Assembly: GCA_007745835.1 (NCBI GenBank)
Contig: CP036424.1
Location: 953,001 to 1,017,000 of the forward strand
DNA length: 64,000 nucleotides
DNA from: Planctomycetes bacterium MalM25
GTDB taxonomy: Bacteria; Planctomycetota; Planctomycetia; Pirellulales; Lacipirellulaceae
Direction of reading: 5' to 3'
Positions 13,204-54,769 of the stretch are shown here, piece by piece. Below the pieces are notes generated by a model, which saw only the letters and a list, made by a program, of their open reading frames with translations, made no database searches and was not told where the DNA came from. The number at the start of each line of letters is the position of its first letter. The first letter of the stretch is position 1. The translations under genes and the position numbers were made by a program.

Positions 13204-13279
<76 letters not shown>

Positions 13280-13320: not shown

Positions 13321-13353
13321 GGCCAAACGTGATTGCACCCACTGCCCGCAAAT

Positions 13354-13369
13354 TTCTGGACGTCCAGAA
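13354..13369. promoter_or_regulatory. 16-bp perfect palindrome upstream of the recombinase
   Basis: TTCTGGACGTCCAGAA is a perfect palindrome 26 bp before the recombinase start. Its half-site CGTCCAGAA recurs twice as direct repeats at 54563 and 54573 near the right end, which suggests a protein-binding site shared by both ends (integrase arm, directionality factor or repressor). Confidence 0.6.
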
Positions 13370-13395
13370 GTCAGTGCCAGTTGGAGTGCATCACC

Positions 13396-14610
13396 ATGCA
13401 ACAGCGTAACTCTTCCGCCCCCTCCTCGGGGCGGTCCAAATTCCCTGCGTACTGCCTCCACGCACGCAGCGGCCGGGCCTACGTGACCATCGCCGGGCGT
13501 CAGGTTTCCCTCGGCGAGTACGGCTCACCGGAGAGCCGCGACGAGTACGACCGCGTCATCGCCGAGTGGCTGGCGTCGGGGCGTCCACGGGACGCTTCTA
13601 ATGGCCAGATCGGCCTTTCGGTCAACGAGCTGATCCTCGCCTTCCTTGGGCACGCGGACAAGCGATATCGCAAGCGTTCCGGCGAGCGTTGCGGCGAGCG
13701 GACCAGTGAGTACGAATACTTACGAGTGTCCTTGCGGGAGCTCAAGCGGCTTTACGGCCTGACCGCTGCGGACGAATTCAAGCCTAGCCACCTGGAGGCG
13801 GTCCGTGACTCGATGATTAGATCTGGTTTGGCCCGAACCGGAGTCAACGGCCGCATTTCTAGAATCGTGCGGATGTTCAAGTGGGGCGTCGGCAAAGGGC
13901 AGATCGACCCGATGACCCACCACGCCCTCTCACAGGTGTTGCCACTACAGCCATTTGAAACAGATGCCCAGGAAACTGATCCAGTAAAGCCAGTGCTCGA
14001 CGAGCACGTCGATCCAATCGCCCCCCACGTCTCACGACAGATTTGGGCGATGGTGAAGGTGCAACGACTGACTGGTATGCGACCCGGCGAGGTTTGCCGC
14101 ATGCGAACCGGGGCGATCGATCGCACTCAGAAGGTGTGGATCTATTCGCTCGACGATCACAAGACAGCTCACCGTGGCCATAGCCGCGTCGTCCCGATCG
14201 GTCCGAAGGCACAGGCGATCTTGAAGCCCTGGCTTCGTGACGATCCGAACGAGTTCCTTTTCTCCCCGGCCGAGGCCGAAAAGGAACGGCGTAAGGCTCA
14301 GCGGGCAGCGAGGAAGACGAAGGTCCAGCCAAGCCAGAGGAAAGCCCGCACGAGTCCCGGTAAGAGACGCCCGCGAGACCACTACCGTGTCGATGCCTAC
14401 TGCAAAGCAATCAAGCGTGCTTGCGCAAAGGCAGGTGTCCCACAGTGGTCCCCCAATCAATTACGGCATGCAGCCGCAACGGAGATCCAGAAGCTGCACG
14501 GGATCGAAGCAGCTTCGATCATTCTCGGGCATAGGAGTCTCACAGTCACGCAAATCTACGCCGAGCGAAATGAAGCCCGTGCAATCGATGTGGCCAGTCA
14601 GTACGGCTGA
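13396..14610 (+). CDS. Tyrosine recombinase (island integrase)
   Basis: 404 aa from ATG 13396; the frame is open to 13333 but that would run through the palindromic site. It has an N-terminal Arm/SAM-like DNA-binding part and a C-terminal catalytic domain. Visible catalytic residues are Arg in TGMRPGEVCR, Arg in PNQLRHAAAT, His in LGHRS and Tyr in VTQIYAER. The usual His of HxLRH is Asn (NQLR), a tolerated variation. It starts about 120 bp from the tRNA attachment site, which is the classical arrangement, and is followed by a terminator. Confidence 0.94.
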   Translation: MQQRNSSAPSSGRSKFPAYCLHARSGRAYVTIAGRQVSLGEYGSPESRDEYDRVIAEWLASGRPRDASNGQIGLSVNELILAFLGHADKRYRKRSGERCGERTSEYEYLRVSLRELKRLYGLTAADEFKPSHLEAVRDSMIRSGLARTGVNGRISRIVRMFKWGVGKGQIDPMTHHALSQVLPLQPFETDAQETDPVKPVLDEHVDPIAPHVSRQIWAMVKVQRLTGMRPGEVCRMRTGAIDRTQKVWIYSLDDHKTAHRGHSRVVPIGPKAQAILKPWLRDDPNEFLFSPAEAEKERRKAQRAARKTKVQPSQRKARTSPGKRRPRDHYRVDAYCKAIKRACAKAGVPQWSPNQLRHAAATEIQKLHGIEAASIILGHRSLTVTQIYAERNEARAIDVASQYG

Positions 14611-39910: not shown

Positions 39911-40675
39911 TCAGCCCTTCTTCGTGAGCCGCGGTCGGCTCTTCATCGCCAGGTACGTTTCGAGCCGATCGATGAGCACCCGTTCGGCCCGGCCGTAGCG
40001 GTTGCGGTTGGAGGCGATGACGCGGGCCACATCGAGGTAGCCCAGCTCGCCGAGGAACGGGAGCCTCGGCAGCTGCGGGATCAGTCGGTCGTTCGGCAGA
40101 TCGGCCAAGAGCCGTTCCGGGTCGCGGTACCGTTCGACGAGCTTCTCGCCGCGCTTCCGGGCGATCAGGATTAGCACGAAGTCGCGGCGGTCGTCGAAGA
40201 GCCGTTCTTCGTCGTACCAACCGCACCGCCAGAGCCCGACCCGGGCGTTGCGTGCCAGTTGATCGGAGGCGTAGCCGTTCTGTCCGTTGTGGTTGGAGAC
40301 CTTGGCTCCGAGCGAGCTGTGGTACTTCATCTCGACGTAGACGGTCGTCGGCGTCGGCTTCTCCCAGGTGATGACGCAGTCGACCTCGGTCTGGCCCTCG
40401 TGCCACGGGGCGAGGTGTCGCGGAAACGCCGGTTGGCGATCCCAGGGTCGTATCCGCAGACCGCGGTAGAGCTGACGCGGGAACCGCTCCTCGCCGAGGG
40501 CCGCGTTGAGGAGATCGGGAACCCACCACCGTGGGTTGAGGGCTTCGAGCACGCCGAACAGCTCGCCGGTGACGACATCCTCGGAGGTCGGCCGGACGAT
40601 CAGCGGACACTTGATCTCGCCGTCCCGGGCGTGCCGACAGACGTCGCCCCCCTTGCCACCGAGTTCGGTCAGCAT
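39911..40675 (-). CDS. PD-(D/E)XK nuclease-like protein
   Basis: 254 aa. A restriction-enzyme-like core is visible: Glu in an N-terminal helix (TSEDVVTGELFGVL), Asp in TEVDCVITW and ExK in VYVEMKYHSS. The remaining sequence is unrecognised. Its start overlaps the end of the next upstream gene by 7 nt (ATGCTGA), so translation is probably coupled to the RecB-like nuclease. Confidence 0.6.
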   Translation of the reverse strand: MLTELGGKGGDVCRHARDGEIKCPLIVRPTSEDVVTGELFGVLEALNPRWWVPDLLNAALGEERFPRQLYRGLRIRPWDRQPAFPRHLAPWHEGQTEVDCVITWEKPTPTTVYVEMKYHSSLGAKVSNHNGQNGYASDQLARNARVGLWRCGWYDEERLFDDRRDFVLILIARKRGEKLVERYRDPERLLADLPNDRLIPQLPRLPFLGELGYLDVARVIASNRNRYGRAERVLIDRLETYLAMKSRPRLTKKG

Positions 40676-41559
40676 GGTGCGGCCTCCGGGAGTCGCTCAG
40701 GGAGTGGCTCACTGGTTGGCTCACGGTAGTCGCCGAGTTGGATCAGCTCCCACTCCGTCGGCGTGGCCGGCTTCCATTCCAGGCACTCGGCTCGGTAGGG
40801 ACAGCCCGAACAGTTGAGTGGCGACTCGATCGGGTAGAAGACCTTCGCCGCGATCGCCCGTTGGATCGTCTGGACGAGATCACCGAGTCGCCCGACGTCA
40901 TCGACGCCGCGGCTCGTCGTGAGCAGTTGGGCTCGCGGCGTCTTCGTCTTGGTGAGCACCGCGTACTCGATCCGCGGCCAGACGCCCCGCGACTCGACAA
41001 CCGCGTTGGCGTAGCAGGTCGCTTGCAGAGCCGTGTCGATCTGGTCTTGGGTATAGGCCCGCTTCGAGGTCTTCAGCTCCCGGATCGTTAGCCCGTCGTC
41101 CTCGCCGTAGATCAGGTCGGCAACCGTCGCTAGCGGTGTTTCGAGCGGGTCGCCCGACGAGTTCACCAGCGGCACGAGGACCGTCTGCTCGACCTGTCGG
41201 ATGTGCTTCGGCGGTTCGAGCTTCAGGTAAGTCTCGACGAGCGTCATGCCCTGCTCGATCAGGCCGTCCCGGGTCTCGCGGGAACCGTACACGACCTTCG
41301 CCTCGTTCTCTCGGCGTTCGAACTCCTCAATCAGCTTCCAACGGACCTCCTCGACGTTGAGGTCAGGAACACTCGCCCGCTCGATCCGCTGAAGCTGGAG
41401 GTGGTACTCGGCGAGGGCCTCGTGGACCGCCCCGCCGAGCACCAATCCGCTGGCGACGGTGTCGCTTGGCAGCTTGAGGATCCGCTGAAAGTAGTACTGC
41501 AGCGGGCAGCGTTGGTACTGGCTAATAGCCGAGTACGACGTGTGGGGTCGATACCCCAT
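40669..41559 (-). CDS. RecB/Cas4-like nuclease with 4Fe-4S cluster
   Basis: 296 aa. YSAISQYQRCPLQYYF (first Cys), GGAVHEALA (the GxxxHxxLE-like helix), VADLIY (Asp), IRELKTSK (ExK) and a C-terminal CSGCPYRAEC give a PD-(D/E)XK nuclease with four Cys for an iron-sulphur cluster, as in Cas4 and AddB. It follows the TxxQ-type protein by 52 bp. End processing of DNA in recombination or replication is likely. No cas gene or CRISPR array is near. Confidence 0.85.
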   Translation of the reverse strand: MGYRPHTSYSAISQYQRCPLQYYFQRILKLPSDTVASGLVLGGAVHEALAEYHLQLQRIERASVPDLNVEEVRWKLIEEFERRENEAKVVYGSRETRDGLIEQGMTLVETYLKLEPPKHIRQVEQTVLVPLVNSSGDPLETPLATVADLIYGEDDGLTIRELKTSKRAYTQDQIDTALQATCYANAVVESRGVWPRIEYAVLTKTKTPRAQLLTTSRGVDDVGRLGDLVQTIQRAIAAKVFYPIESPLNCSGCPYRAECLEWKPATPTEWELIQLGDYREPTSEPLPERLPEAAPC

Positions 41560-41611: not shown

Positions 41612-42127
41612 CTAGGTGCGAGCAGGCTGCTCCGCGGTGAGTCGGTCGAGGACCGTACCCGCCTCCCGCTTCGTCAGGTCGTAGAGGCCGACCGACTTGC
41701 CGAGGATGTCGGCGATGCGGCCTTCGAGCTGCGGCGTCGAGAGGTCGCTCCGCTTACTGATCGAGACGAGGTACTGGACCTGCTTGTTGGTCGCCGGCTC
41801 GTCGGGCTTGCCCTTGGCGGGACGCGTCTCGGTAGGGGCGGTCGGCTGCGTCCCGATCCGATTGACCGGTTGGGTCCGCGGTGCGGCGGCCGGTCGGGGC
41901 GTCGCCGGTGGGGCGTCCCGATGGGCGATCGCCGACTCGCCCTCGTACCGTTCGATCTGGTCGGTCAGCGAGGCGTCGGCTAGGTCGTAGATCTCGCGGA
42001 CCTTCTCGATGACGCCGTCGGGGTCGTCGAGCGGGACGCCGACCTCGCCCTCGACGTTGATGCTGAAGCCGGTCGAGTTGTAGTCACGGGTTAGCTTGCG
42101 GCTCAGGCCGACGTTGACGCGGAGCAT
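41612..42127 (-). CDS. Unknown protein, recombination-associated type
   Basis: 171 aa. The N-terminal half (MLRVNVGLSRKL followed by STGFSINVEGEV) resembles a family found next to RecB-like nucleases and recombinases in mobile elements. A Pro/Ala-rich linker follows, then a C-terminal TNKQVQYLVSI...LTKREAGTVLDRL helical motif. The exact function is unknown. Confidence 0.55.
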   Translation of the reverse strand: MLRVNVGLSRKLTRDYNSTGFSINVEGEVGVPLDDPDGVIEKVREIYDLADASLTDQIERYEGESAIAHRDAPPATPRPAAAPRTQPVNRIGTQPTAPTETRPAKGKPDEPATNKQVQYLVSISKRSDLSTPQLEGRIADILGKSVGLYDLTKREAGTVLDRLTAEQPART

Positions 42128-42159: not shown

Positions 42160-44013
42160 CTAGGTACCCGAGTCGGCAGCGTCTGCCGATGGCTTGGCTG
42201 GTATGAACCCCGAACGCCCGTGTTCTGCGGCCGTGAACCGATAAACGTTCGCGACAGTTTCGATGTCTTCTGGAGGTTCCTCGTTCTCGATCACTAGCAC
42301 TTGCAGTGCTCCAGAATAGGTTGCCAGCGACCTGTAGAACTGCTCCTTAAACATCCTTGGCAGCGTGATGTCTTCCTTGTCGGGCTCGCGATAGACCGCC
42401 AGCGGAGTGTCTACGACTACGATTCCCGGATGGGGTTTGCCCTCTTCGATGCAGTAACGAGCTAGGCCGAGGTTGAACGCCGTACGCAGAACGGCACGAA
42501 CGCCCTTGCCGTGGTCGGCTCTTTTTCGACCACCGATCACGATGTCTTGATCTTCACTGCTGTAGACCACTTCTGCGGCACCGGGGAAACCCCACTCATC
42601 CAGGAGTGCTCTTATCGACGCACCAAGTTTCTCGTACTCCACGGTGCGGAGCGTGCTACTCGGTTTACGACGGGCTTTCTTTCGGTTCTTCTCTTCCGCG
42701 AGGATGGACTCGTAGTTGTCGAGTTCTTCGTAAAGTACTTGACACCTCCCCAGTCGATCTCGGATTTCACGCAGCTCGCTGGATTGGCGAACGTACGTAT
42801 CAATCCTCCCTTCGATCGTGGTCGCGAGGATCCGATCGAGTTCCGTGAGGCGGTCACGGAGGTCTGCCAGCCCATCATCGAGCGTCCGAAGCTCTTCGTC
42901 GGTGGAAGCACGCGTTTTCTGAAGATCGGTGAGCAGCCGCTTCACTTTCTCCGATTCTGCTTTCGCGGCCGTCACGACGGCTTCGGGAGATGCGGCCTGC
43001 TCAGCATGAGACTGAGAGTGATGTTCGTGTTGTGCTCCGCACACAGGACAACGGACTTCAGTGTGCTCTAGCAGAAGTCGTCCCGCTATACCGACTGCTT
43101 CCAAACGCTTTGCATCTGACTCGTACTGCGTCTGCAGCATGTCGAATCGCCGAGATACTTCATCGAGAACTCGCACTCGTGCCTCTGCAGACCTTACTCC
43201 TTGAAAGACTTCGGTGCGTTCTGCGTCATAAGATTGAGCTGACTCCTCCGCCATGGCGAGTTCGGCCAGGACACCGTCGAGAGCCCCTTCTACTTTCTCT
43301 AGCCTGCTGGCTACTTCCTCGGCGTCCTTCCCCGCGTCTAGCTTTTCGATACTCGCCTTCGTCCTGCTGATCAGCGAATCCAAGAGCTCTCGACGTCCTT
43401 GGGTTTCCCCTCTCAGGTGCTTTGGATCAGGTTGTTCTTCAACGTCGCTATCGTCGTTGCCTGTCAGCAGCAGATGAAGGACTCGTTCGGCTCCAGTTTG
43501 CTGCTCGTACGAATCAGCCGGTAAAGGAGATGAGTCGGAGACGATGTCCGTCTCGGTAACCACGACGAGCTTCGCGAGGTCGCGGAAGCTCAATGCCTTA
43601 GTGGTTCCCCTCTGGTTCGTCCTCACTTTACGATCTTCAAGGCCCGTCAGCCTGAGAAGCACTGATGAGATCGACTCGTCGTTCTGGCTGGCCGAGTCCT
43701 TGATGGGCACGCGGTCGCCATCAGCCTGGCGATACTCGACTGCCCCCGTCGCCAACGAACGCGAGATCTCGTGGAGACTGTCGTCGGAACGGCGAACTAA
43801 AGTTGCCGCGATATGGGTGTAGCCGACTGCTTCCGGAATGGCCTTCGGCGGCGTACGTGCCCCGAAGACGTAGTCGAGACAGTCGACTACGTAAGTCTTG
43901 CCGGTCTCAGACGCCCCTACGATGACACTAAGCCCATCCTCGAAACTGAGCGATGCCTCGGGGAGTGCCGTGCCGACGACGCTGATTCGGCGTATGTAGA
44001 ATCCGGAACTCAT
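42160..44013 (-). CDS. ABC-3C system ATPase (SMC/Rad50-like)
   Basis: 617 aa from ATG 44013, overlapping the upstream gene by ATGA. Walker A GASETGKT (33-40), coiled coil with a Rad50-type zinc hook CPVC (Cys322, Cys325), and Walker B near PGIVVVDTPL. This ATPase, the middle component and the REase-type gene form a three-component system of the ABC-3C kind described from comparative genomics, thought to act in conflict and defence. It is AT-rich for this genome. Confidence 0.85.
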   Translation of the reverse strand: MSSGFYIRRISVVGTALPEASLSFEDGLSVIVGASETGKTYVVDCLDYVFGARTPPKAIPEAVGYTHIAATLVRRSDDSLHEISRSLATGAVEYRQADGDRVPIKDSASQNDESISSVLLRLTGLEDRKVRTNQRGTTKALSFRDLAKLVVVTETDIVSDSSPLPADSYEQQTGAERVLHLLLTGNDDSDVEEQPDPKHLRGETQGRRELLDSLISRTKASIEKLDAGKDAEEVASRLEKVEGALDGVLAELAMAEESAQSYDAERTEVFQGVRSAEARVRVLDEVSRRFDMLQTQYESDAKRLEAVGIAGRLLLEHTEVRCPVCGAQHEHHSQSHAEQAASPEAVVTAAKAESEKVKRLLTDLQKTRASTDEELRTLDDGLADLRDRLTELDRILATTIEGRIDTYVRQSSELREIRDRLGRCQVLYEELDNYESILAEEKNRKKARRKPSSTLRTVEYEKLGASIRALLDEWGFPGAAEVVYSSEDQDIVIGGRKRADHGKGVRAVLRTAFNLGLARYCIEEGKPHPGIVVVDTPLAVYREPDKEDITLPRMFKEQFYRSLATYSGALQVLVIENEEPPEDIETVANVYRFTAAEHGRSGFIPAKPSADAADSGT

Positions 44014-44504
44014 TGCGCCCAGAGCTCCCAATCAGCGTCAGTCGCCATCTCGAACTCTGCCCCCCAATCTCCGAGATGGCGTTTGGCGTAAGCCCTTAGC
44101 TGTCGATCGTTTAGGGTCTTAAAGCGGCGATCTACCCACGACGCTCTGTCTCGAAGGGCAGCCAGATAGACTCCGTCACACGCATCCAGGAAGACCCCTG
44201 TATAGTCATTGGCGGAGTAGTAGATGCCGGCTTTCTGGTACCGCGTAGTCACCAGGCTGCGGCTGTAGAACAGCTGGAGACCTTGCCTCAGTGGGCCACG
44301 ACGCACGAGTATCTCGCCGCTTCGGTATGGCGTATCGGGGTGGAGGCTTTCGGGGCCTTCCTCGATATCCGAGGAGTGGACGCACAGATAGTCGTAGATG
44401 ACGAGCCTGCTTAGCGAAGCTTTGCGGGGAAAGATGGCTTCGAGGATCGTAGCCGCACGCAGTCCGAGCTCGACTGAGGAGTTGAAAGGATCTACGTTTG
44501 CCAT
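44010..44504 (-). CDS. ABC-3C middle component
   Basis: 164 aa from ATG 44504; GTG 44516 would overlap the upstream gene. Family features are LVIYDYLCVHSSD, SLHPDTPYRSGEILVRRGPL, GIYYSANDYTGVFLDAC and LRDRASWV. It probably bridges the ATPase and the effector. No catalytic residues were seen. Confidence 0.75.
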   Translation of the reverse strand: MANVDPFNSSVELGLRAATILEAIFPRKASLSRLVIYDYLCVHSSDIEEGPESLHPDTPYRSGEILVRRGPLRQGLQLFYSRSLVTTRYQKAGIYYSANDYTGVFLDACDGVYLAALRDRASWVDRRFKTLNDRQLRAYAKRHLGDWGAEFEMATDADWELWAQ

Positions 44505-44506
44505 CG

Positions 44507-45586
44507 TTACACCCACTTGAGCCGGTCGTCGTTAGACAGCTGGAAACAGATGCCGCTCCGATCGTTTGTGTGCATCCTTTCTACAAGGGCGTGATCGGTA
44601 ATCTGTAACGCCCGTGCCTTTTCAACGACTGCCTTCACACGTTCGTAGCCGTCGGGATGCAGGTCGCGTGCCACCTGCTTGAGGCCATCATAGTACTGGT
44701 CCTTTAGCTGCTGGTACGATTCCGGGGGAAGGTTATCTCGTGAGAACGTGCGAAGAGATTCGGCACAGTAGAAGTCTCTCCTTGAGTCTTCAAAGTGCTC
44801 GGTTAGCACGGGGTCCGGCTGAAGGTCATCGACTGCTTGGATTGCGTGTTGAGAGTGACTGTCGTACGCGTCGAGCAGATGCTGCACGTACGTTAACTCT
44901 TCTTGAGTAATCGTCTTTGGGGCAGCCTTGGGGAGCGGCTTCCGTGGAGGCATTCCACCAAAGCGGTTCGTGTAGTACGGCGTCGATCTGTGCCCTTTGA
45001 TGAGTTCATATGGCGATTCGTAGGAGAAGACGCTGAAGTCTGCCGCCTCAATGAGGCTCTTGAGTCCACCGGATAGTCCGATAGCTTGCTTCTTGATGAT
45101 CTTTTCCTTGACCCACTTGTCCCAGTTAGACATCAGGCCATCGCGGAGGGCCTCTTGGTTACGGAACAGATCGCAAAGACTGGTACCAGCCCCTTGCGGA
45201 GCGACAAATCGATACTTGGAGGGCATCGAGTAGTCGCCACGCTCGACGTAGTAGAACAGCTTCCCCAGTTCGACCCAGATGTTGGTCGGAGTGAGTGGGT
45301 TCTTGTAGTGCTTGCACTGATAATTGTCCCACTCGCCAGCAGTCTCGTCGATCCATCCGATCACATCGCGGCCTTTGTCGCCGGCACCCCCGCACTGTTC
45401 AATCCGTTCGTAGCATGCCTCTAGCGAGGTGGCCCACTCGACCGTGAATGCCTCCCATTCACCGGAGCTGTAGGCCCGAATGCGATCGATTGGTTGAAAA
45501 GGTAGGCCCTGACGAGCGATATCCGGGGGTGGTGCCGCCAATTTCGGCGGCTTGGGCATGTCGATAGTCGTAAGCTTATCTGGCAT
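44507..45586 (-). CDS. ABC-3C effector with PD-(D/E)XK nuclease domain
   Basis: 359 aa. Mrr-like nuclease residues: Glu50 (FTVEW), Asp74 (GRDVIGW), and Gln90-Cys-Lys92 (NYQCKHY). The C-terminal half is an alpha-helical interaction region ending QLSNDDRLKWV. It is the first gene of the trio. DNA cleavage triggered by the ATPase/middle component is inferred from the family. Confidence 0.8.
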   Translation of the reverse strand: MPDKLTTIDMPKPPKLAAPPPDIARQGLPFQPIDRIRAYSSGEWEAFTVEWATSLEACYERIEQCGGAGDKGRDVIGWIDETAGEWDNYQCKHYKNPLTPTNIWVELGKLFYYVERGDYSMPSKYRFVAPQGAGTSLCDLFRNQEALRDGLMSNWDKWVKEKIIKKQAIGLSGGLKSLIEAADFSVFSYESPYELIKGHRSTPYYTNRFGGMPPRKPLPKAAPKTITQEELTYVQHLLDAYDSHSQHAIQAVDDLQPDPVLTEHFEDSRRDFYCAESLRTFSRDNLPPESYQQLKDQYYDGLKQVARDLHPDGYERVKAVVEKARALQITDHALVERMHTNDRSGICFQLSNDDRLKWV

Positions 45587-47242: not shown

Positions 47243-48658
47243 CTTAACAGCCCGTTGATTTCTGTTGGTCGATCGTTCGGATGAGCCAGTCGAGGGCGGC
47301 GGTGAGTAGTTGGGCGAGTTGATCGAGGAGGCCCGCCAGGGCCTTGGGCTTGCCGGCCCCCAGGAGGCTCCGCAGGAGGATCGCCAGGTTGTGGGCGGCG
47401 GCCACGATCAAGTGTCGCTTCCGCACCTTCTCGATCCCCCGCAGCCGCGTCCGCCTCGCCCCGCCCGTCTCGCATGTGTGGGCGAACGTGCGTTCGACTC
47501 GTTCCGATCTCAGCTTCTGCAAGCGGCTGTTCTTCTCGGTCTTCGTCCGCCGCCGGTTGGCGACCACCGCTTCCTTCAGCCCGCTCGGTTTATCGGTCCA
47601 ACGCCGCTGGTAAGGCGAGTTGGGCTCGGGGATGTAGGTCCGCACGTTCAGGCTCTCGACCAACTCCAACTGCCCCGCCGCGTGGTACCCCTTGTCCGCC
47701 ACCACCTCCTCGAAGACCTCGCCCCGGCCCGCTTCGGACACGTGGGTCCGGGCCGCCATCGCCGTGTCGGCCAGCGTTCGCGAGTCGCTCTGGTCGGCGT
47801 GGTAGACCTCCGCCGCGACCACCAGCTCGGTCTCCAGGTCGATCGCGTGCTCCGCCTTGTACGCCAGACGCGTGCGGCCGTCCTTCAGCTTCGCGATCCG
47901 CGCGTCCGGGTCGGTCGGGGACTCCCACTCGGCGTTGCTCGTCTTCTTGTTCTTCCGCTTCTTGTCGAACCGCCGCAGGTCCTCGTCCGTGGGGTCTTCG
48001 CCTTCTTCGATCTCACCCGCTTCTTGCATCAACCGCTTGACGTACGCCTTCCAGTCCTCGCCCGACTCCTTGCGAACGATGCTCCGCATCGCCGCGTCCG
48101 CTTCGAGTGTCGTGGAGTCGACGCCGAGCGTCTTGCCCTTCAAGAGGCCCTTCTCGGCCGCCGCGGCGAGCACCAAGCGGAACGCCAGCTCATGGACCTC
48201 CAAGGGGAGCCGGTCGCGGGTCTTGCTCAAGGTCGAGTGGTCGGGGGTCCGTTCGGTGAGCTTCACCCCCAAGAACTCCCGCAGGCTGAGGCTGTCGGCG
48301 CACCGCCAGGCGATCCCACGCTGGCTGTCGATCGCTTCGAAGTACCCGACGAACAGCATCCGGAAGTACGTGCCCGGCGCGATCGAGTCGCGACCGCCCT
48401 GGGCGTCGTAGTACGGCACGCACGCCGCCTCGACCGCGTCGTCGAAGCCGCACTCCCCCAGCAGCCGGTTCAGCCGCCGGTAGAACGCGTGCCCCGGGCT
48501 CGCCGCCAGCTCGCCCGACGGCACGAACAGCTCCCCCTGCGACTCCCGCCGCCGCTTACCCATCCCCATCGCGATCCCTCCGTCGCGTCGACCTAGAAGC
48601 TCACAGACTAGCGCTATCTCGCCGCGATCGCGAGCGAGAAAATCAACGGGCTGTTAAG
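47243..48658 (-). mobile_element. Insertion sequence, IS1182-like
   Basis: The ends carry a 19-bp perfect terminal inverted repeat (CTTAACAGCCCGTTGATTT at 47243; its complement ends at 48658). The transposase stop lies inside the left repeat. It abuts the DUF932 gene, whose stop codon lies in the right repeat. The family name is by protein resemblance. Confidence 0.8.
47244..48569 (-). CDS. DDE transposase (IS1182-like)
   Basis: 441 aa. YDAQGGRDSIAPGTYFRML is the N-terminal domain typical of these transposases. DDE residues are in VDSTTLEAD, VVADKGYH and VERTFAH. A coding region spans nearly the entire IS. A very long opposite-strand frame here is a shadow. Confidence 0.88.
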   Translation of the reverse strand: MGMGKRRRESQGELFVPSGELAASPGHAFYRRLNRLLGECGFDDAVEAACVPYYDAQGGRDSIAPGTYFRMLFVGYFEAIDSQRGIAWRCADSLSLREFLGVKLTERTPDHSTLSKTRDRLPLEVHELAFRLVLAAAAEKGLLKGKTLGVDSTTLEADAAMRSIVRKESGEDWKAYVKRLMQEAGEIEEGEDPTDEDLRRFDKKRKNKKTSNAEWESPTDPDARIAKLKDGRTRLAYKAEHAIDLETELVVAAEVYHADQSDSRTLADTAMAARTHVSEAGRGEVFEEVVADKGYHAAGQLELVESLNVRTYIPEPNSPYQRRWTDKPSGLKEAVVANRRRTKTEKNSRLQKLRSERVERTFAHTCETGGARRTRLRGIEKVRKRHLIVAAAHNLAILLRSLLGAGKPKALAGLLDQLAQLLTAALDWLIRTIDQQKSTGC

Positions 48659-49637
48659 TGGCGAGGGCGAGGGCCTGCTCGAAGGCCCGCTGCTTGAGGC
48701 TGCGGCCCGGTCCGAAGAAGGCCGAGTGGAGGCGGCGATCGGCCCGGGTGCGGTCGTCGGGGCCGCGGGTGCGTTGATGGTGATCGACGTGCTCGCTGAC
48801 GGCATTGACCGCCGCCCACAGGGTGCGGCGGACGCCGGGTAGGTCCTGGCCGAGACCTGTCTCGAACAGCTCGACAAGTCGTTCGTGGGTGCGGTGCCGT
48901 CGGCGTCGGGGGCTGTCCTTGGGTGGCGGCGGTAGGAGGTCGGTGAAGAACCGATCGACCTCGTCGCTGCTCATCGCGTGACGGGCGAGGAGGTTCGCCT
49001 GCTCGTGGTAGGTTTGGAACCGACGCTGGGCGAGGCCGAGGATCTCACGGGCCTCTTCGAGCCGGCCGCGGATGTCGCCGCGGTGGCGGATCGAGACGCC
49101 CTGACCGCGGCGGCGGCGGCGGTGGGCGAGCTGGTAGGTGTTGTGGCACACCGTGCGGACCGCCGTCGGGAACACGCGGAGGGACGCCGAACCGTCGTGC
49201 GTGTTCGACAGCATCAAGTAGGGGCGGGTGACGTCGTCGGTCTGGTTGATCCGCAGCTCACCGGGCATACGAGCGAGGAGCCAGATCTTCTCGCCTCGGC
49301 CGAGGGCCCCGGCGACCTCGTACCGCAGCTCGCCCTCCTCCACAAGGGCGTCCAGGAAGGCGAAGCAGTCGCGGTTGGCTATCACCTCATAGGCGGGGCC
49401 GACCGTGCCGAGCACTTCGAGGCTGTCCTGCCGGACGGTCGCCCTCCGCCCCGGGACGGGTAGTCCGCAGCTCGTCTGGAGGTCACACGTGGTGACCTCG
49501 TAGTCGAGTCCCGCCGCCTCGATCACCTCGGCCGCCGTCGCCGGTCGGTGGAGTCTTGTGCCGAGGCCGTGCCACGGCGTGATGCCGGAGTAGGCGATCG
49601 CGGGTTTTCCGTTGGTCGTCGCGAGGTCGTGCGGCAC
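48654..49637 (-). CDS. DUF932-family (phage/plasmid-type) protein
   Basis: 327 aa. PWHGLGTRL and VRTVCHNTYQLAHRRR are DUF932 features; the C terminus (FFGPGRSLKQRAFEQALAL) is also in keeping. The family is encoded by phages and plasmids and its role is unclear. The stop codon is supplied at the IS boundary, so the last residues may have been altered by the insertion. Confidence 0.8.
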   Translation of the reverse strand: MPHDLATTNGKPAIAYSGITPWHGLGTRLHRPATAAEVIEAAGLDYEVTTCDLQTSCGLPVPGRRATVRQDSLEVLGTVGPAYEVIANRDCFAFLDALVEEGELRYEVAGALGRGEKIWLLARMPGELRINQTDDVTRPYLMLSNTHDGSASLRVFPTAVRTVCHNTYQLAHRRRRRGQGVSIRHRGDIRGRLEEAREILGLAQRRFQTYHEQANLLARHAMSSDEVDRFFTDLLPPPPKDSPRRRRHRTHERLVELFETGLGQDLPGVRRTLWAAVNAVSEHVDHHQRTRGPDDRTRADRRLHSAFFGPGRSLKQRAFEQALALAT

Positions 49638-49692: not shown

Positions 49693-51573
49693 CTAGAGGT
49701 TGTTGCGGGGGTGAGCCCACGAGTCCCTGACGCTCCTCCGCATCTCGTCTCGGAGTGCTTGGACGTCGTCGGGGTCAACGTGTCTTCGCGGCACGGTGCG
49801 ATGCTCGTTTCCGTACTTGATCCGCGAGCTGATCGGTCGCCGCTGGCGTTCGCGAAGTTCTTCGAGGGGGTGTTGCCTTGGGCCTGCGATGGCGCCTGTT
49901 TGACCATCGCCTCGCTTGCTGTTGGTTGTTCTTTCTCTTTGTCTCCGTATCCCCCAAAGGGGTACATTCCAATACGTGTCACTTTCTGCGTTGAGACGCT
50001 CAGACGCCGCCCTCACTAGCGAGAGGGCATAGGCGACTGCGGCGTCGACGTCGAGCGGCACTTCCTTGTTCTGGCGTGACCTCTCTTCGAGAACGGGTTG
50101 AACCGCGAGACAATAGGTGCGAGCCCGACCGGTTCCGTTGGTGCTCCGCTTCTCGTTCCTAACCAGCCTCATCACACCACGCTCCACGACGGCATCAAGC
50201 AGCGGCTTGTAGCGTTTGCCGCTGCAGCGGGGCCAGGTGCGGAAGACACTTTTGGCGGCCATGGGTGCCTCCCAACCCTCGGGCTTCCCCACTCCGCAGG
50301 TCTTGGCGAACTCCAGGGCTCGGCAAGCGAACGCGACCTCGTCTTCGAAGGAGCCTTTGGTCCAATCGAGTAGCTCGACGATTCGAGCGATCTCTTCTGG
50401 GAAGAGCCGGGGCCGCCTGGCCGCACCCGCATCGGTCTCTGCGTCCATTGTCCACCGGACGATGTCGGCGTTTTGATCGGCGACACGGCGGGTGCCTCTT
50501 CGTAAGTCCTCATCGACGTCCTTTGAGACGCCTTCGCCGGTTGCGTAGACCCACTCGTTGAGAAACCTGATGGCTTCTGTTGCAGAGCAGTCTTTGACTT
50601 TGATTAGGTGCCACGCGATGTGCTTCGTGACAGTGACCCGGGTACCCGGACCCGGGATACCCTCTTCAATCATCCGCTTGGCCTCTGCGCGACTGCGGGG
50701 TGCCCGCACCAACGGTGGTTCGGTGTCGTCGCGTTCCGCAACGGTTCGATGACGACGTACATCCGCTCGTGGCGATCCACAGACCGACATGTACATCGGC
50801 TGGTGACTGGAAATTGCTGTGCTCGGTGTCCGGTGATTCGTGACGCTACCCGGTTCGAAGGTCGATCGGGCTCGGGCCCAAACGTCCTGCCATTTGGGTG
50901 TAAAGACTTCGCCCGCTTGGAATCTGCGGATGAACTCGATCCATGCCTCGGGGTCGAGCTGGCGATCGGGGAGCTTCCCGAACGGCAGTCGGAGCCCGTG
51001 GTTCTTGTGCGGGTAGACCTCGGTCTGACCGCGAGCGTCTTGGACGCCGATCATGTTGAACAGCGTCGCGACGTCCACGACGGGCATCGTCGAGCTGAAG
51101 AAGCCGATGAGATGCACACCGCCGCTGGGCGTATCAGAGATAAGCAGGCTCTGACGGGGAAACCCGAGCTTGATCATCGCCCCCAGGGCACGGTTGTACC
51201 GCCGCTGGTAGTCTTCCAGATCGTCGCCATGACAATCGACGTCGAGGGCGACCCAACGGGTGTACTTGGTCGGCCAAGGGGCCACCCACTGCGGTGGACG
51301 CCCTGGCACCCGGTCGCCGAGCAAGTGCCGGATGACGCGAGCCTCGTCGAGCCGGCCTTTCGCTTTGACCCAGTCTCGTGGATCACCGGATGCGGCCCTT
51401 GTCACCGAGAACTCGGGGTGGGCCGGGCAAAAGAGTTTGATGAAGGCGTTCAGTTCGGCTTGGGTGGCCCCGAGCATTCTTAGCTGCTCCTCCGGGCTGT
51501 AGCGTTTCTTCCATTGGCCGGCTTTGGTCTTGGTCGAGACGCCGTTGATCTCGTCGGGGTAGTTCGTGGACAT
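49693..51573 (-). CDS. AEP-type primase / replication protein
   Basis: 626 aa from ATG 51573. The archaeo-eukaryotic primase core has hDhD (ALDVDCH, Asp111 and Asp113), an SGGVHLIGF strand with the His motif, and HGLRLPFGK with the late basic motif. A long C-terminal part is less clear. Primases of this class start replication of plasmids and islands. It is the probable initiator of the element's own replication. Confidence 0.75.
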   Translation of the reverse strand: MSTNYPDEINGVSTKTKAGQWKKRYSPEEQLRMLGATQAELNAFIKLFCPAHPEFSVTRAASGDPRDWVKAKGRLDEARVIRHLLGDRVPGRPPQWVAPWPTKYTRWVALDVDCHGDDLEDYQRRYNRALGAMIKLGFPRQSLLISDTPSGGVHLIGFFSSTMPVVDVATLFNMIGVQDARGQTEVYPHKNHGLRLPFGKLPDRQLDPEAWIEFIRRFQAGEVFTPKWQDVWARARSTFEPGSVTNHRTPSTAISSHQPMYMSVCGSPRADVRRHRTVAERDDTEPPLVRAPRSRAEAKRMIEEGIPGPGTRVTVTKHIAWHLIKVKDCSATEAIRFLNEWVYATGEGVSKDVDEDLRRGTRRVADQNADIVRWTMDAETDAGAARRPRLFPEEIARIVELLDWTKGSFEDEVAFACRALEFAKTCGVGKPEGWEAPMAAKSVFRTWPRCSGKRYKPLLDAVVERGVMRLVRNEKRSTNGTGRARTYCLAVQPVLEERSRQNKEVPLDVDAAVAYALSLVRAASERLNAESDTYWNVPLWGIRRQRERTTNSKRGDGQTGAIAGPRQHPLEELRERQRRPISSRIKYGNEHRTVPRRHVDPDDVQALRDEMRRSVRDSWAHPRNNL

Positions 51574-51660
51574 GCTGAACGTATGAAAGAGAACAGCGGG
51601 CACCGGTAAGAACCGATACCCGCTGTCGTGTTGGAGTCGCTCACGGTGTAACTTGGCCGA

Positions 51661-52485
51661 CTACCAAGACTCTTCAAGCGGCTCCATGTCCTGGACGACG
51701 AGAGCCGTCGAATCCGATTGCCCGTACAGGTCCGTGATGGCCGCCTGGGTCAACGAGGTGTGCCCGCGGTTCTTGAGCTGGAAGGGCAGCGTGTCGAGAC
51801 CGTAGGGATCGAAACCGATCGCCTCCACCGCTTCAACCACGACTTCCGCGGACTCGAAAGTCATCCCTTCTTCTTGGAGCCGGCAAGTGAGGAAGCCGAC
51901 CGCCTCCTCTTCCGACGGTAGATCGACACGCACCAGGTGCGGCAGGAGCAATCTCGCCAGATCATCGGCGAGCTTGTTTTCGTCGTCGCACGTCAGGAAG
52001 ATCACGCGATTGGGCTGATCCAAGTGATCGCGCAGCTCACTGCACAGGACCTTCTGCTGAGCGTCGTCGAGCTCGTCGATCCGCGTGATGATGAACACGT
52101 CGGCATCCAGTGCGGCGATGCGTGTGACATTCGCTCCCGGACCCGACGGTTTCGCCCCTTTGAGGATCGTCGTTGCTTTCTCCTCAAAGATATCCGTGCG
52201 ATCCGTTCGCCCGATTCGCCGGCAAGCGGAGCAGGGGTTGTCTCGGCAAAGCTGGCCGGACTTCTGTCCGGGTCCGTCGCACAGTGCTATAGCGGCGGCG
52301 TGCCGGGCCATGAACCTTTTGCCGACTCCTTGCTGTCCGTGGAAGGATACTAAGTGCAGCATTCCGTTCCGGTTGGTCTCGTCAAGCTGATTGACGACGG
52401 CAGACTTGCCTACTTGGTGGACTCGGCGATCGCCCCGGCAACGGGAACGCAGTTGGTTAGCTTTTAGGCGTGAGACGTAGCTCAT
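51661..52485 (-). CDS. DnaX-like AAA+ ATPase (clamp-loader type)
   Basis: 274 aa from ATG 52485 with Shine-Dalgarno AAGGAG. Walker A GQQGVGKR; a four-Cys knuckle (CDGPGQ, LC, NPCSAC) as in DnaX; Walker B DVFIITRIDELDD; a sensor region LTCDDENK. The layout equals the AAA+ domain of clamp-loader gamma/tau subunits, without their C-terminal domains. Loading a primase, helicase or clamp during island replication is inferred. Confidence 0.75.
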   Translation of the reverse strand: MSYVSRLKANQLRSRCRGDRRVHQVGKSAVVNQLDETNRNGMLHLVSFHGQQGVGKRFMARHAAAIALCDGPGQKSGQLCRDNPCSACRRIGRTDRTDIFEEKATTILKGAKPSGPGANVTRIAALDADVFIITRIDELDDAQQKVLCSELRDHLDQPNRVIFLTCDDENKLADDLARLLLPHLVRVDLPSEEEAVGFLTCRLQEEGMTFESAEVVVEAVEAIGFDPYGLDTLPFQLKNRGHTSLTQAAITDLYGQSDSTALVVQDMEPLEESW

Positions 52486-52585
52486 GGTCTTTCTCCTTGA
52501 AGTTATGAAACTAGAACGCAAGTTGTGTCGCTGGAACCACTTGGGGTTTCAGGGAGGGCGTGCGAAGCCGATCGTTTGGGCTGCG

Positions 52586-53764
52586 TCATGCATCGGGAGG
52601 CAACTCCTTGGGGAGACGACGGAAGGGATTCTGAGCTTTGAAGGGCGGCACAGCGTCATCAGTGAAGCGGTAGACTTGATGCTTCCGTTTCGTCTTGAGA
52701 TTCCGCTCAGGCCGCGATTCGAGGAGTCGTTCCGATTCGAGTTTCTTCAGGTACTTGGCGACGGTGTTCCATGAAATGTTCGTCGCCTCCGCAATTTCGC
52801 GGATGCTGAAGGCTTCACCAGACGGCGTCATGCGACGACGGGTCCGCTGTTGCGACTTCTTGCTCGCATAGGCATAGACGTGTTCGGCAAAGCTCGCCTC
52901 CTTCGGCGTTAACCTCACGTCCTCGGTGAGCACGCTGGAGCTGTTGAGGAGCCGACGAACGAAGCCGTAGTCGCCGTCGGCAACGGCCCAGTCGGCATCC
53001 CCATCGGTCGTGCACCGGAGCCAGACCGCAGCGGAGATCAATGCGTTCAGGACGAGCCAGTGATTGCCCGTTGGCTTGATTCGCAGGTCGTCGAGTCGTC
53101 CGAGACGAAGTAGAGGCTGGTCGCCTCGGGCCTGATGCAGGAGCTTGGTGATGAGCAGGCCCTCAGGCGATATGTTGATGACGGGGCGTCCAAACTGATG
53201 GCTGGCATGCCTGGCAGCGAAAGCGTGCTTTCCAGGCGGGCTGGCTAGCGCCAGCCGTGGTCCCGCCACGGAGCGACTGGGACCTGTGGTAGAGATCACG
53301 ATCGACGTCGAGCCCTCACCGTCGAAACGCGTCGCCGTGTCTTCGAGAAGGCGATCCGCCACCTTATGACTGGCGGCTGTCGCTATGACGACGGTGTCGG
53401 CCTGTTGCCTTGCCTCGACTATTCGAGACAGCTGCGGCTGGTAGCCGAGCACTGTGGCCCGGTCTGGACAAAGCGTCAACACGCGGCTGATGGCCTGCTG
53501 CGTTTTCGTCAGGTCGTCGGCAACGACCCACAGCTGGAGCCCCGACTTATGAACGCCGAGCAACATCCAGAGGTAGGTCGTCAACGACAGGAGATCAACA
53601 CCGTCACGCAGCCAAGCCGCGAGATCCGTGACGACATGTCCCACCGGGTGGTCGCCGACAACCTCGATCACTTCCGAGGTCAGCTCGGGCGGCGATTCGC
53701 CCGGTGATGTGGAGCCATCGTGCGATTGATCGACGCCGACGGGCAGGATGATATTTGAGTGCAT
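52586..53764 (-). CDS. Unknown protein with C-terminal winged helix
   Basis: 392 aa. The first 250 residues, with strand/loop patterns such as LQLWVVADDLTKTQ and ADTVVIATAASHKVADRLLE, are unrecognised. The C-terminal FSIREIAEATNISWNTVAKY is a winged helix-turn-helix. In the replication-like module it could be a helicase loader, copy-control or partition factor. Confidence 0.6.
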   Translation of the reverse strand: MHSNIILPVGVDQSHDGSTSPGESPPELTSEVIEVVGDHPVGHVVTDLAAWLRDGVDLLSLTTYLWMLLGVHKSGLQLWVVADDLTKTQQAISRVLTLCPDRATVLGYQPQLSRIVEARQQADTVVIATAASHKVADRLLEDTATRFDGEGSTSIVISTTGPSRSVAGPRLALASPPGKHAFAARHASHQFGRPVINISPEGLLITKLLHQARGDQPLLRLGRLDDLRIKPTGNHWLVLNALISAAVWLRCTTDGDADWAVADGDYGFVRRLLNSSSVLTEDVRLTPKEASFAEHVYAYASKKSQQRTRRRMTPSGEAFSIREIAEATNISWNTVAKYLKKLESERLLESRPERNLKTKRKHQVYRFTDDAVPPFKAQNPFRRLPKELPPDA

Positions 53765-53808: not shown

Positions 53809-54117
53809 TCAGAGAATCCGATCAAGCTCGGCACCGGCACGCTCGGCGGCGGCACGGGCCCGCGACGGCGTCCGCGTGGGAGCGGGTCGCTTGGCGTCAC
53901 CCGAGTGACGCCGCTCGACGGCGTCGGCAAACCGCTCCAGGGCCTCTACGCTTGTCATCAACCGGCCAAGCCGGATCGTTTCGAGGCGTACGCCGAGTCG
54001 TCCGGCGGTGGTCCAGCGGAAGATCGTACTGCGGTTAATGTGTTGCCCCGGCTTGGCACCGGGGATCATCGCAGCGGCTTCGCTCAGGGTAAGGAGTCGC
54101 TCGTCGATCAGGGACAT
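53809..54117 (-). CDS. DUF1580-type helix-turn-helix protein (excisionase-like)
   Basis: 102 aa from ATG 54117; an upstream start at 54165 is possible. LIDERLLTLSEAAAMIPG and HINRSTIFRWTTAGRLGVRLETIRLG form a MerR/excisionase-like DNA-binding domain (DUF1580, common in planctomycetes). It lies 607 bp from attR. A recombination-directionality role is inferred from position. Confidence 0.65.
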   Translation of the reverse strand: MSLIDERLLTLSEAAAMIPGAKPGQHINRSTIFRWTTAGRLGVRLETIRLGRLMTSVEALERFADAVERRHSGDAKRPAPTRTPSRARAAAERAGAELDRIL

Positions 54118-54562
54118 CAGAGATAGGTGGGTAGACGGTGTGCCAATACCCGAGCTACCCGCCAAAGCGAGAAGGCCCGAGTCGTTGACACCACCGCCGA
54201 CCGACAGGAATCATCTGTCCGCTTGCCGACGCCCGTGCGTGTACGGGTTCGCGTTGCACGAAGTGCTCACCGAGAGGACCTATGCGTCTCGGCTGGGGCT
54301 ATGCCCCTGAGCTACCTTCACCCGCTGGATGATGACGCGGGCAACATTGCCCACGCAGATGCAACGATAACGCTCGCTCTCCATCCGTCCAGAGGTTTGC
54401 GTTTCGGAACCGTTGCTGGAACAGTGGGCCGGGAGAAGCTTCGGCTCAGATTCGCCACCTGTTGGGCGATCTCAGGGAGAACGCCCAGCCGAACTTTTTC
54501 TGATTTCTTTTTTGGAGCCAGATCAATACGTTGCTCTTGGTCTCATTCACGACGCTGTTGCT
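54118..54562. other. Right-end non-coding region
   Basis: No gene was seen. It contains CGTCCAGAG (54386-54394), a one-base variant of the half-site found at the left end, and is the likely site of binding by integrase or DUF1580. Confidence 0.45.

Positions 54563-54723: not shown

Positions 54724-54769
<46 letters not shown>

Follow-up and report, generated by a model that had tools for sequence, protein, structure and literature searches.

A conserved primase, DnaX-like AAA+ and winged-helix gene set in a tRNA-Val island of Planctomycetes bacterium MalM25: a candidate replication module

In Planctomycetes bacterium MalM25, the genes of an AEP primase, a truncated DnaX-type AAA+ protein and a winged-helix (wH) protein are clustered at one end of an integrative island, and the best reading of this module is a role in copying the element. 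We read it in this way because the module lies at an att-bounded island end and is conserved in related islands. The probability that it serves to initiate and prime the replication of a cryptic integrative element, by the mechanism proposed below, is about 0.5. The window, that is, the whole stretch of DNA analysed, comprises 64,000 nucleotides of a 4.72 Mb single-contig genome (G000:C1:953001-1017000). An earlier note on this DNA had called the three genes an island replication module; the bounded island and the conserved module agree with this proposal, but no origin was found.

The window contains a 41.5 kb tRNA-Val island, which is genuinely att-bounded and integrative (Table 1). Both a full-length integrase and att repeats in a tRNA gene, marks of an integrative mobile element, are present. 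The integrase occupies one end of the island and the three-gene module the other, and they are neighbours across the circle junction. The GC content is about 0.56-0.65 over most of the island versus 0.65-0.73 outside. The cargo includes RND/metal efflux genes, a DinB-type polymerase (PF00817; 26445-27701) and a Lamassu system (LmuA, LmuB and LmuC; ABC-3C with MC2 and CTD6) at 42160-45586, which is inserted into the island backbone. An IS-type DDE transposase gene (DUF772/DDE_Tnp_1; 47244-48569) sits between the DUF932 gene and an RNase H-like gene. In the main island ORFs scanned (small ORFs were left out), Pfam revealed no relaxase or type IV secretion genes, and no phage structural genes were seen in the ORFs scanned. 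The island therefore belongs to the class of cryptic integrated MGEs (PMC5862659). The congeners do not provide a clean empty site for comparison: tRNA-Val is missing at the orthologous place in G059 and G082, and G092 has tRNA-Val without this island. In G092, a partial copy of the tRNA-Val 3' end (52 nt, 88%; L026 7703-7753) is found some 3.1 kb away from the intact tRNA gene and is perhaps a scar of another integration.

Table 1. Borders, module and backbone genes of the island. Positions are those of the window; G013 is a Pirellulales MAG (JALHMI010000014).
Feature	Position	Strand	Evidence
attL, 3' part of the tRNA-Val(GAC) gene (13204-13278)	13234..13279	+	exact 46 bp match to 54724-54769
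Tyrosine recombinase/integrase adjoining attL	13333..14610	+	PF00589 E 5e-18
254 aa backbone protein	39911..40675	-	50% identity to G013 neighbour
PD-(D/E)XK (RecB/Cas4-like) backbone nuclease	40669..41559	-	PF12705 E 6e-24; PADLOC Cas4 1.6e-11
P171, 171 aa backbone protein of no assigned family	41612..42127	-	46% identity to G013 neighbour; present in G563, G022, G021
DUF932 / TIGR03299 phage-plasmid-like protein, conserved downstream neighbour	48654..49637	-	PF06067 E 1.6e-60; 52% identity to G013 neighbour
Putative AEP-family primase (DVD, PSGGVH, EVYP motifs)	49693..51573	-	motifs invariant in six family members
Terminator-like 16-pair hairpin between AAA+ and primase	51592..51627	-	-30 kcal/mol with flanks, z -5.6
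DnaX-like AAA+ (domains I-II only), four-Cys knuckle, Walker A GQQGVGKR	51661..52485	-	NCBIfam and profile matches
wH protein, N-terminal domain resembling a P-loop-less MGE helicase; candidate initiator/loader	52586..53764	-	PF13412; hhalign
DUF1580 / HTH_17-like small protein, candidate excisionase	53809..54165	-	PF07618 E 1e-9; weak phrog_66 excisionase match
attR, 46 bp copy of the tRNA-Val 3' part	54724..54769	+	exact direct repeat, 41,490 bp away

The primase ORF (49693-51603, with a better ATG start at 51573) gave no match above the cut-off in Pfam or NCBIfam; PF22548 matched only the G013 relative, and weakly (E 0.019). Nevertheless, the AEP primase claimed in the earlier note is borne out by the catalytic motifs. 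The DxD (D111/D113, numbered from the ATG start), PSGGxH and E-x-x-P motifs do not vary among six members of the family, drawn from five genomes, and they correspond to the DxD, sxH and third acidic motif of the AEP superfamily. The best match among proteins of solved structure is the CAPP Prim-Pol (7NQF/7P9J; 7P9J is described in PMC10345425), weak at E 0.23 but with all three motifs aligned. Judged by these motifs, the protein appears to be a divergent AEP. No helicase domain was seen in it. The gene is single-copy in the genome, and a search against plasmids and phages gave no match.

The AAA+ ORF (51661-52521, better ATG start at 52485) by itself matches the NCBIfam holB/DnaX models at 1e-4 to 1e-6, and its G013 relative at 3.9e-21. 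A profile of four members matches E. coli gamma/tau with an E value of 6e-24 over residues 8-246. Bacterial DnaX (gamma/tau) and HolB thus share with the window protein AAA+ domains I-II, the RecA-like and lid domains, and the four-Cys knuckle, whose cysteines occur in every member. The previously proposed clamp-loader-like ATPase with four cysteines and no tau extension is therefore recognisable in every part, and it deviates further from DnaX and HolB. The homology ends at gamma residue 246 (the window protein has 274 aa and that of G013 has 259 aa), and the collar domain III is absent along with tau. Walker A is atypical in the window protein only: GQQGVGKR lacks the usual Ser/Thr, whereas G013, G021, G022 and G066 have the canonical GPTGSGKT, GPTGVGKT, GIFGYGKT and GPSGSGKS. 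A clamp loader without the collar domain cannot form the canonical pentamer. Since the collar is absent here, the protein is unlikely to be a clamp loader proper.

The third protein, earlier described as unknown with a winged helix, indeed matches PF13412 at its C-terminus (E 4.4e-6, residues 320-347). Its layout was first likened by eye to that of mobile-element helicases. Helicase-wH genes of Pirellulales were found with a hand-written consensus, and only the actual genes retrieved were used for the comparison. With hhalign, the wH protein aligns colinearly to the profiles of these genes over 307 columns, at probability 90 and E 1.8e-6. When the 300 N-terminal residues are compared by themselves, the match to the helicases is weak: they score 27.8, and the best of 100 column shuffles scores 24.7. 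The helicase P-loop GPSSSGKS aligns to VADDLTKT in the window protein. This is moderate evidence that the wH protein may be a P-loop-less derivative of MGE helicase-wH proteins. In several other Pirellulales loci, the helicase-wH gene is flanked by a primase gene, of Prim-Pol or CHC2 type, on one side and a tyrosine recombinase gene on the other (domains were named by eye). These primase, helicase-wH and integrase elements (L077-L089) resemble the window module in gene order and domain plan, but they have an intact GPSSSGKS-type P-loop, whereas in the window the P-loop is lost and a separate AAA+ gene is present. A search of the wH protein against plasmids gave no match. AlphaFold models from two-sequence alignments reached a mean pLDDT of only 36 and 41.

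All three ORFs are on the same strand and have a coding-type GC3 of about 0.72. The earlier note considered them cotranscribed, which is doubtful given gaps of 100 bp (wH to AAA+) and 87 bp (AAA+ to primase) and hairpins in the two islands that agree best in gene order; the gap from the primase to the DUF932 gene is 55 bp. The window hairpin has a short T-rich tail and is single-copy in the genome. In none of 1000 shuffles were 16 pairs reached. At the same place, G013 has a 13-pair terminator-like hairpin followed by TGTTTTT; no such hairpin was found at the AAA+-primase junctions of G022 and G066. Because these hairpins separate the AAA+ gene from the primase gene, the primase gene is probably transcribed at a different level from wH-AAA+ in the window and G013. 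In 39-56 kb, Rfam gave 0 matches.

The gene order of G013 is identical to that of the window: wH, AAA+, primase, DUF932, P171, PD-(D/E)XK nuclease and 254 aa protein. In the window, the IS, the RNase H-like gene and Lamassu have entered between the DUF932 and P171 genes. In G022, a serine recombinase is followed by a protein ending in a winged helix, AAA+, primase and DUF932, and the backbone genes come at some distance after these. The 9 kb contig of G066 contains AAA+ and primase but shows no backbone genes. The contig of G021 ends after wH and the start of AAA+, and the backbone genes are on another contig. In G563, the primase has no AAA+ gene beside it. AAA+ is thus directly upstream of the primase in four of the five readable islands (G000, G013, G022 and G066), and in three genomes wH immediately precedes AAA+. 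The proteins upstream of AAA+ in G022 and G066 were also considered as wH homologues, and the homology was not convincing. DUF932 and the P171, PD-(D/E)XK and 254 aa genes share a contig in G000, G013 and G022.

The closest relatives of the PD-(D/E)XK nuclease (E <1e-69, all others >1e-33) come from exactly five genomes: G000, G563, G013, G021 and G022. The primase and/or wH gene is present in all five, so closely related islands do carry genes of the module; their absence would have spoken against the earlier proposal. Strong matches to wH were found in 3 of 397 sampled Pirellulales genomes and, among 334 sampled genomes of the phylum, in the window's own genome only; the samples of the separate searches overlap partly, and the relatives are few, divergent and in many cases on short MAG contigs. 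The viral contigs scanned gave no match. The module is rare and, as far as sampled, limited to one order. It is kept in islands with differing integrases, with a serine recombinase in G022 instead of the tyrosine one, and is therefore a conserved and exchangeable module. GC3 is 0.71-0.73 in the wH, AAA+, primase and DUF1580 genes and 0.82-0.90 in the DUF932 and backbone genes. This gap suggests that the module and the DUF932/backbone set have separate histories.

The closest studied precedent for the island is ICETh2 of Thermus thermophilus (PMC7693054). Both use a tRNA-Val site, a tyrosine integrase and an excisionase, and in both a presumed replication module includes an AEP-type primase. 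ICETh2 combines a primase-polymerase (Ppol) with a helicase (Hel) in 11.3 kb (PMC7693054), whereas the 41.5 kb island has the DnaX-like AAA+ and P-loop-less wH proteins as partners and carries metal-efflux and Lamassu cargo. The island also resembles the PrimPol-PV1 elements (Kazlauskas et al. 2018, PMC5862659), in which the AEP is found in cryptic integrated elements with att repeats at tRNA genes; in chromosomes, nearly all AEPs of this group lie in integrated MGEs, and these are frequently at tRNA genes. It differs from them in that no helicase domain was detected in the primase and none of the Pfam AEP models matches it above the cut-off. The helicase linked to PrimPol-PV1 has no counterpart here, as no P-loop helicase (GK[ST]) was found in the primase or wH protein. 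The words "clamp", "DnaX" and "planctomycete" are absent from the main text of PMC5862659. In a limited check of the open-access literature, we found no description of a truncated DnaX-type AAA+ paired with an AEP primase. In planctomycete islands, this pairing is part of a recurrent gene set. If the module drives element replication, it would show how mobile DNA can recruit clamp-loader ATPases as initiator partners, and the mobile elements of planctomycetes are little studied.

From the established island borders, gene identities and gene set conserved in related islands, we infer a mechanism of circle replication. Int/Xis recombination between the att sites would release a circle. The wH protein, related to the helicase-wH proteins but now without their P-loop, would bind a site in the element, and the collar-less DnaX-type AAA+ would be its nucleotide-dependent partner. 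The AAA+ protein could then load or tether host DnaB and/or Pol III, with no clamp loading by a canonical pentamer. The AEP enzyme would lay primers, from which the host replisome would copy the circle. The hairpin between the genes would probably set AAA+ and primase at different expression levels.

Several observations favour an initiation and priming role: the module is kept across the integrase change, the AAA+ profile matches gamma/tau, the wH protein aligns to helicases, and other Pirellulales elements have a primase, a helicase-wH and a tyrosine integrase at the equivalent place. Against it are the lack of a P-loop helicase in the module, the atypical Walker A of the window protein, the G563 primase without an adjoining AAA+ gene and the weak match of the wH N-terminus. 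The Ppol of ICETh2 is also dispensable for replication (PMC7693054). In addition, the origin search proposed earlier, by repeats and GC-skew, revealed only scattered short repeats, with no iteron or other origin-like array and no skew switch. That the helicase-like and ATPase functions of the initiator are split between a helicase-wH protein without a P-loop and a collar-less DnaX-derived AAA+, the latter acting in trans to load parts of the host replisome and forming no clamp-loader ring, seems rather unlikely to us.

The main alternative to initiation and priming is a DNA-processing or barrier role, because ICETh2 does not need its Ppol for replication and because the linked genes accompany defence systems. 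The module would then be an accessory defence or repair unit that processes foreign or damaged DNA, which we consider improbable. The nearest solved structures are the CAPP Prim-Pols noted above, and a role of this kind has been proposed for CRISPR-associated Prim-Pols. The linked backbone contains the Cas4-like nuclease and the island contains Lamassu; the backbone genes also adjoin Wadjet JetD in G021, and elsewhere in the MalM25 genome they lie in a restriction-type locus. The Ppol of ICETh2 is reported to be a barrier to environmental DNA (PMC7693054). However, the PADLOC matches of the module itself are generic HTH only, it lies by the att/xis end outside the defence genes, its GC3 differs from that of the backbone, and G066 shows an AAA+-primase pair with no backbone genes visible on its contig. 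Less likely still, the module is a decaying remnant of an immobile island whose AAA+ has lost its ATPase function. The Ser/Thr of Walker A, kept in four relatives and missing here, and the entry of the IS-type transposase gene and long cargo into the backbone are consistent with decay, but all ORFs are intact with coding GC3, the att repeats are exact, the integrase is full length and the AEP motifs are preserved. Just as doubtful is that the wH protein merely regulates transcription of the module while AAA+ and primase act with the host helicase alone. Its best HTH matches are to generic regulators and its N-terminal domain has no P-loop, but it also has a full-length colinear match to replication helicase-wH proteins and a conserved place upstream of AAA+.

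The backbone genes also occur outside the island. A second set of P171, PD-(D/E)XK and 254 aa genes, 74-85% identical, is present in the same genome without the module (G000:C1:4119600-4121900; L057 15663-17873). Its neighbours are a large methyltransferase-like gene, a UvrD-like helicase gene and a gene for a 2055 aa DEAD/MZB helicase (L058), and a metallo-beta-lactamase gene nearby is also duplicated (87%). Replisome parts recur around the backbone nuclease gene set: in other Pirellulales loci, the nuclease genes lie near a DnaE fragment (PF17657; L061 12097-13407) or near a short DnaN-like sliding clamp (PF02767/PF02768; L062 1717-2433).
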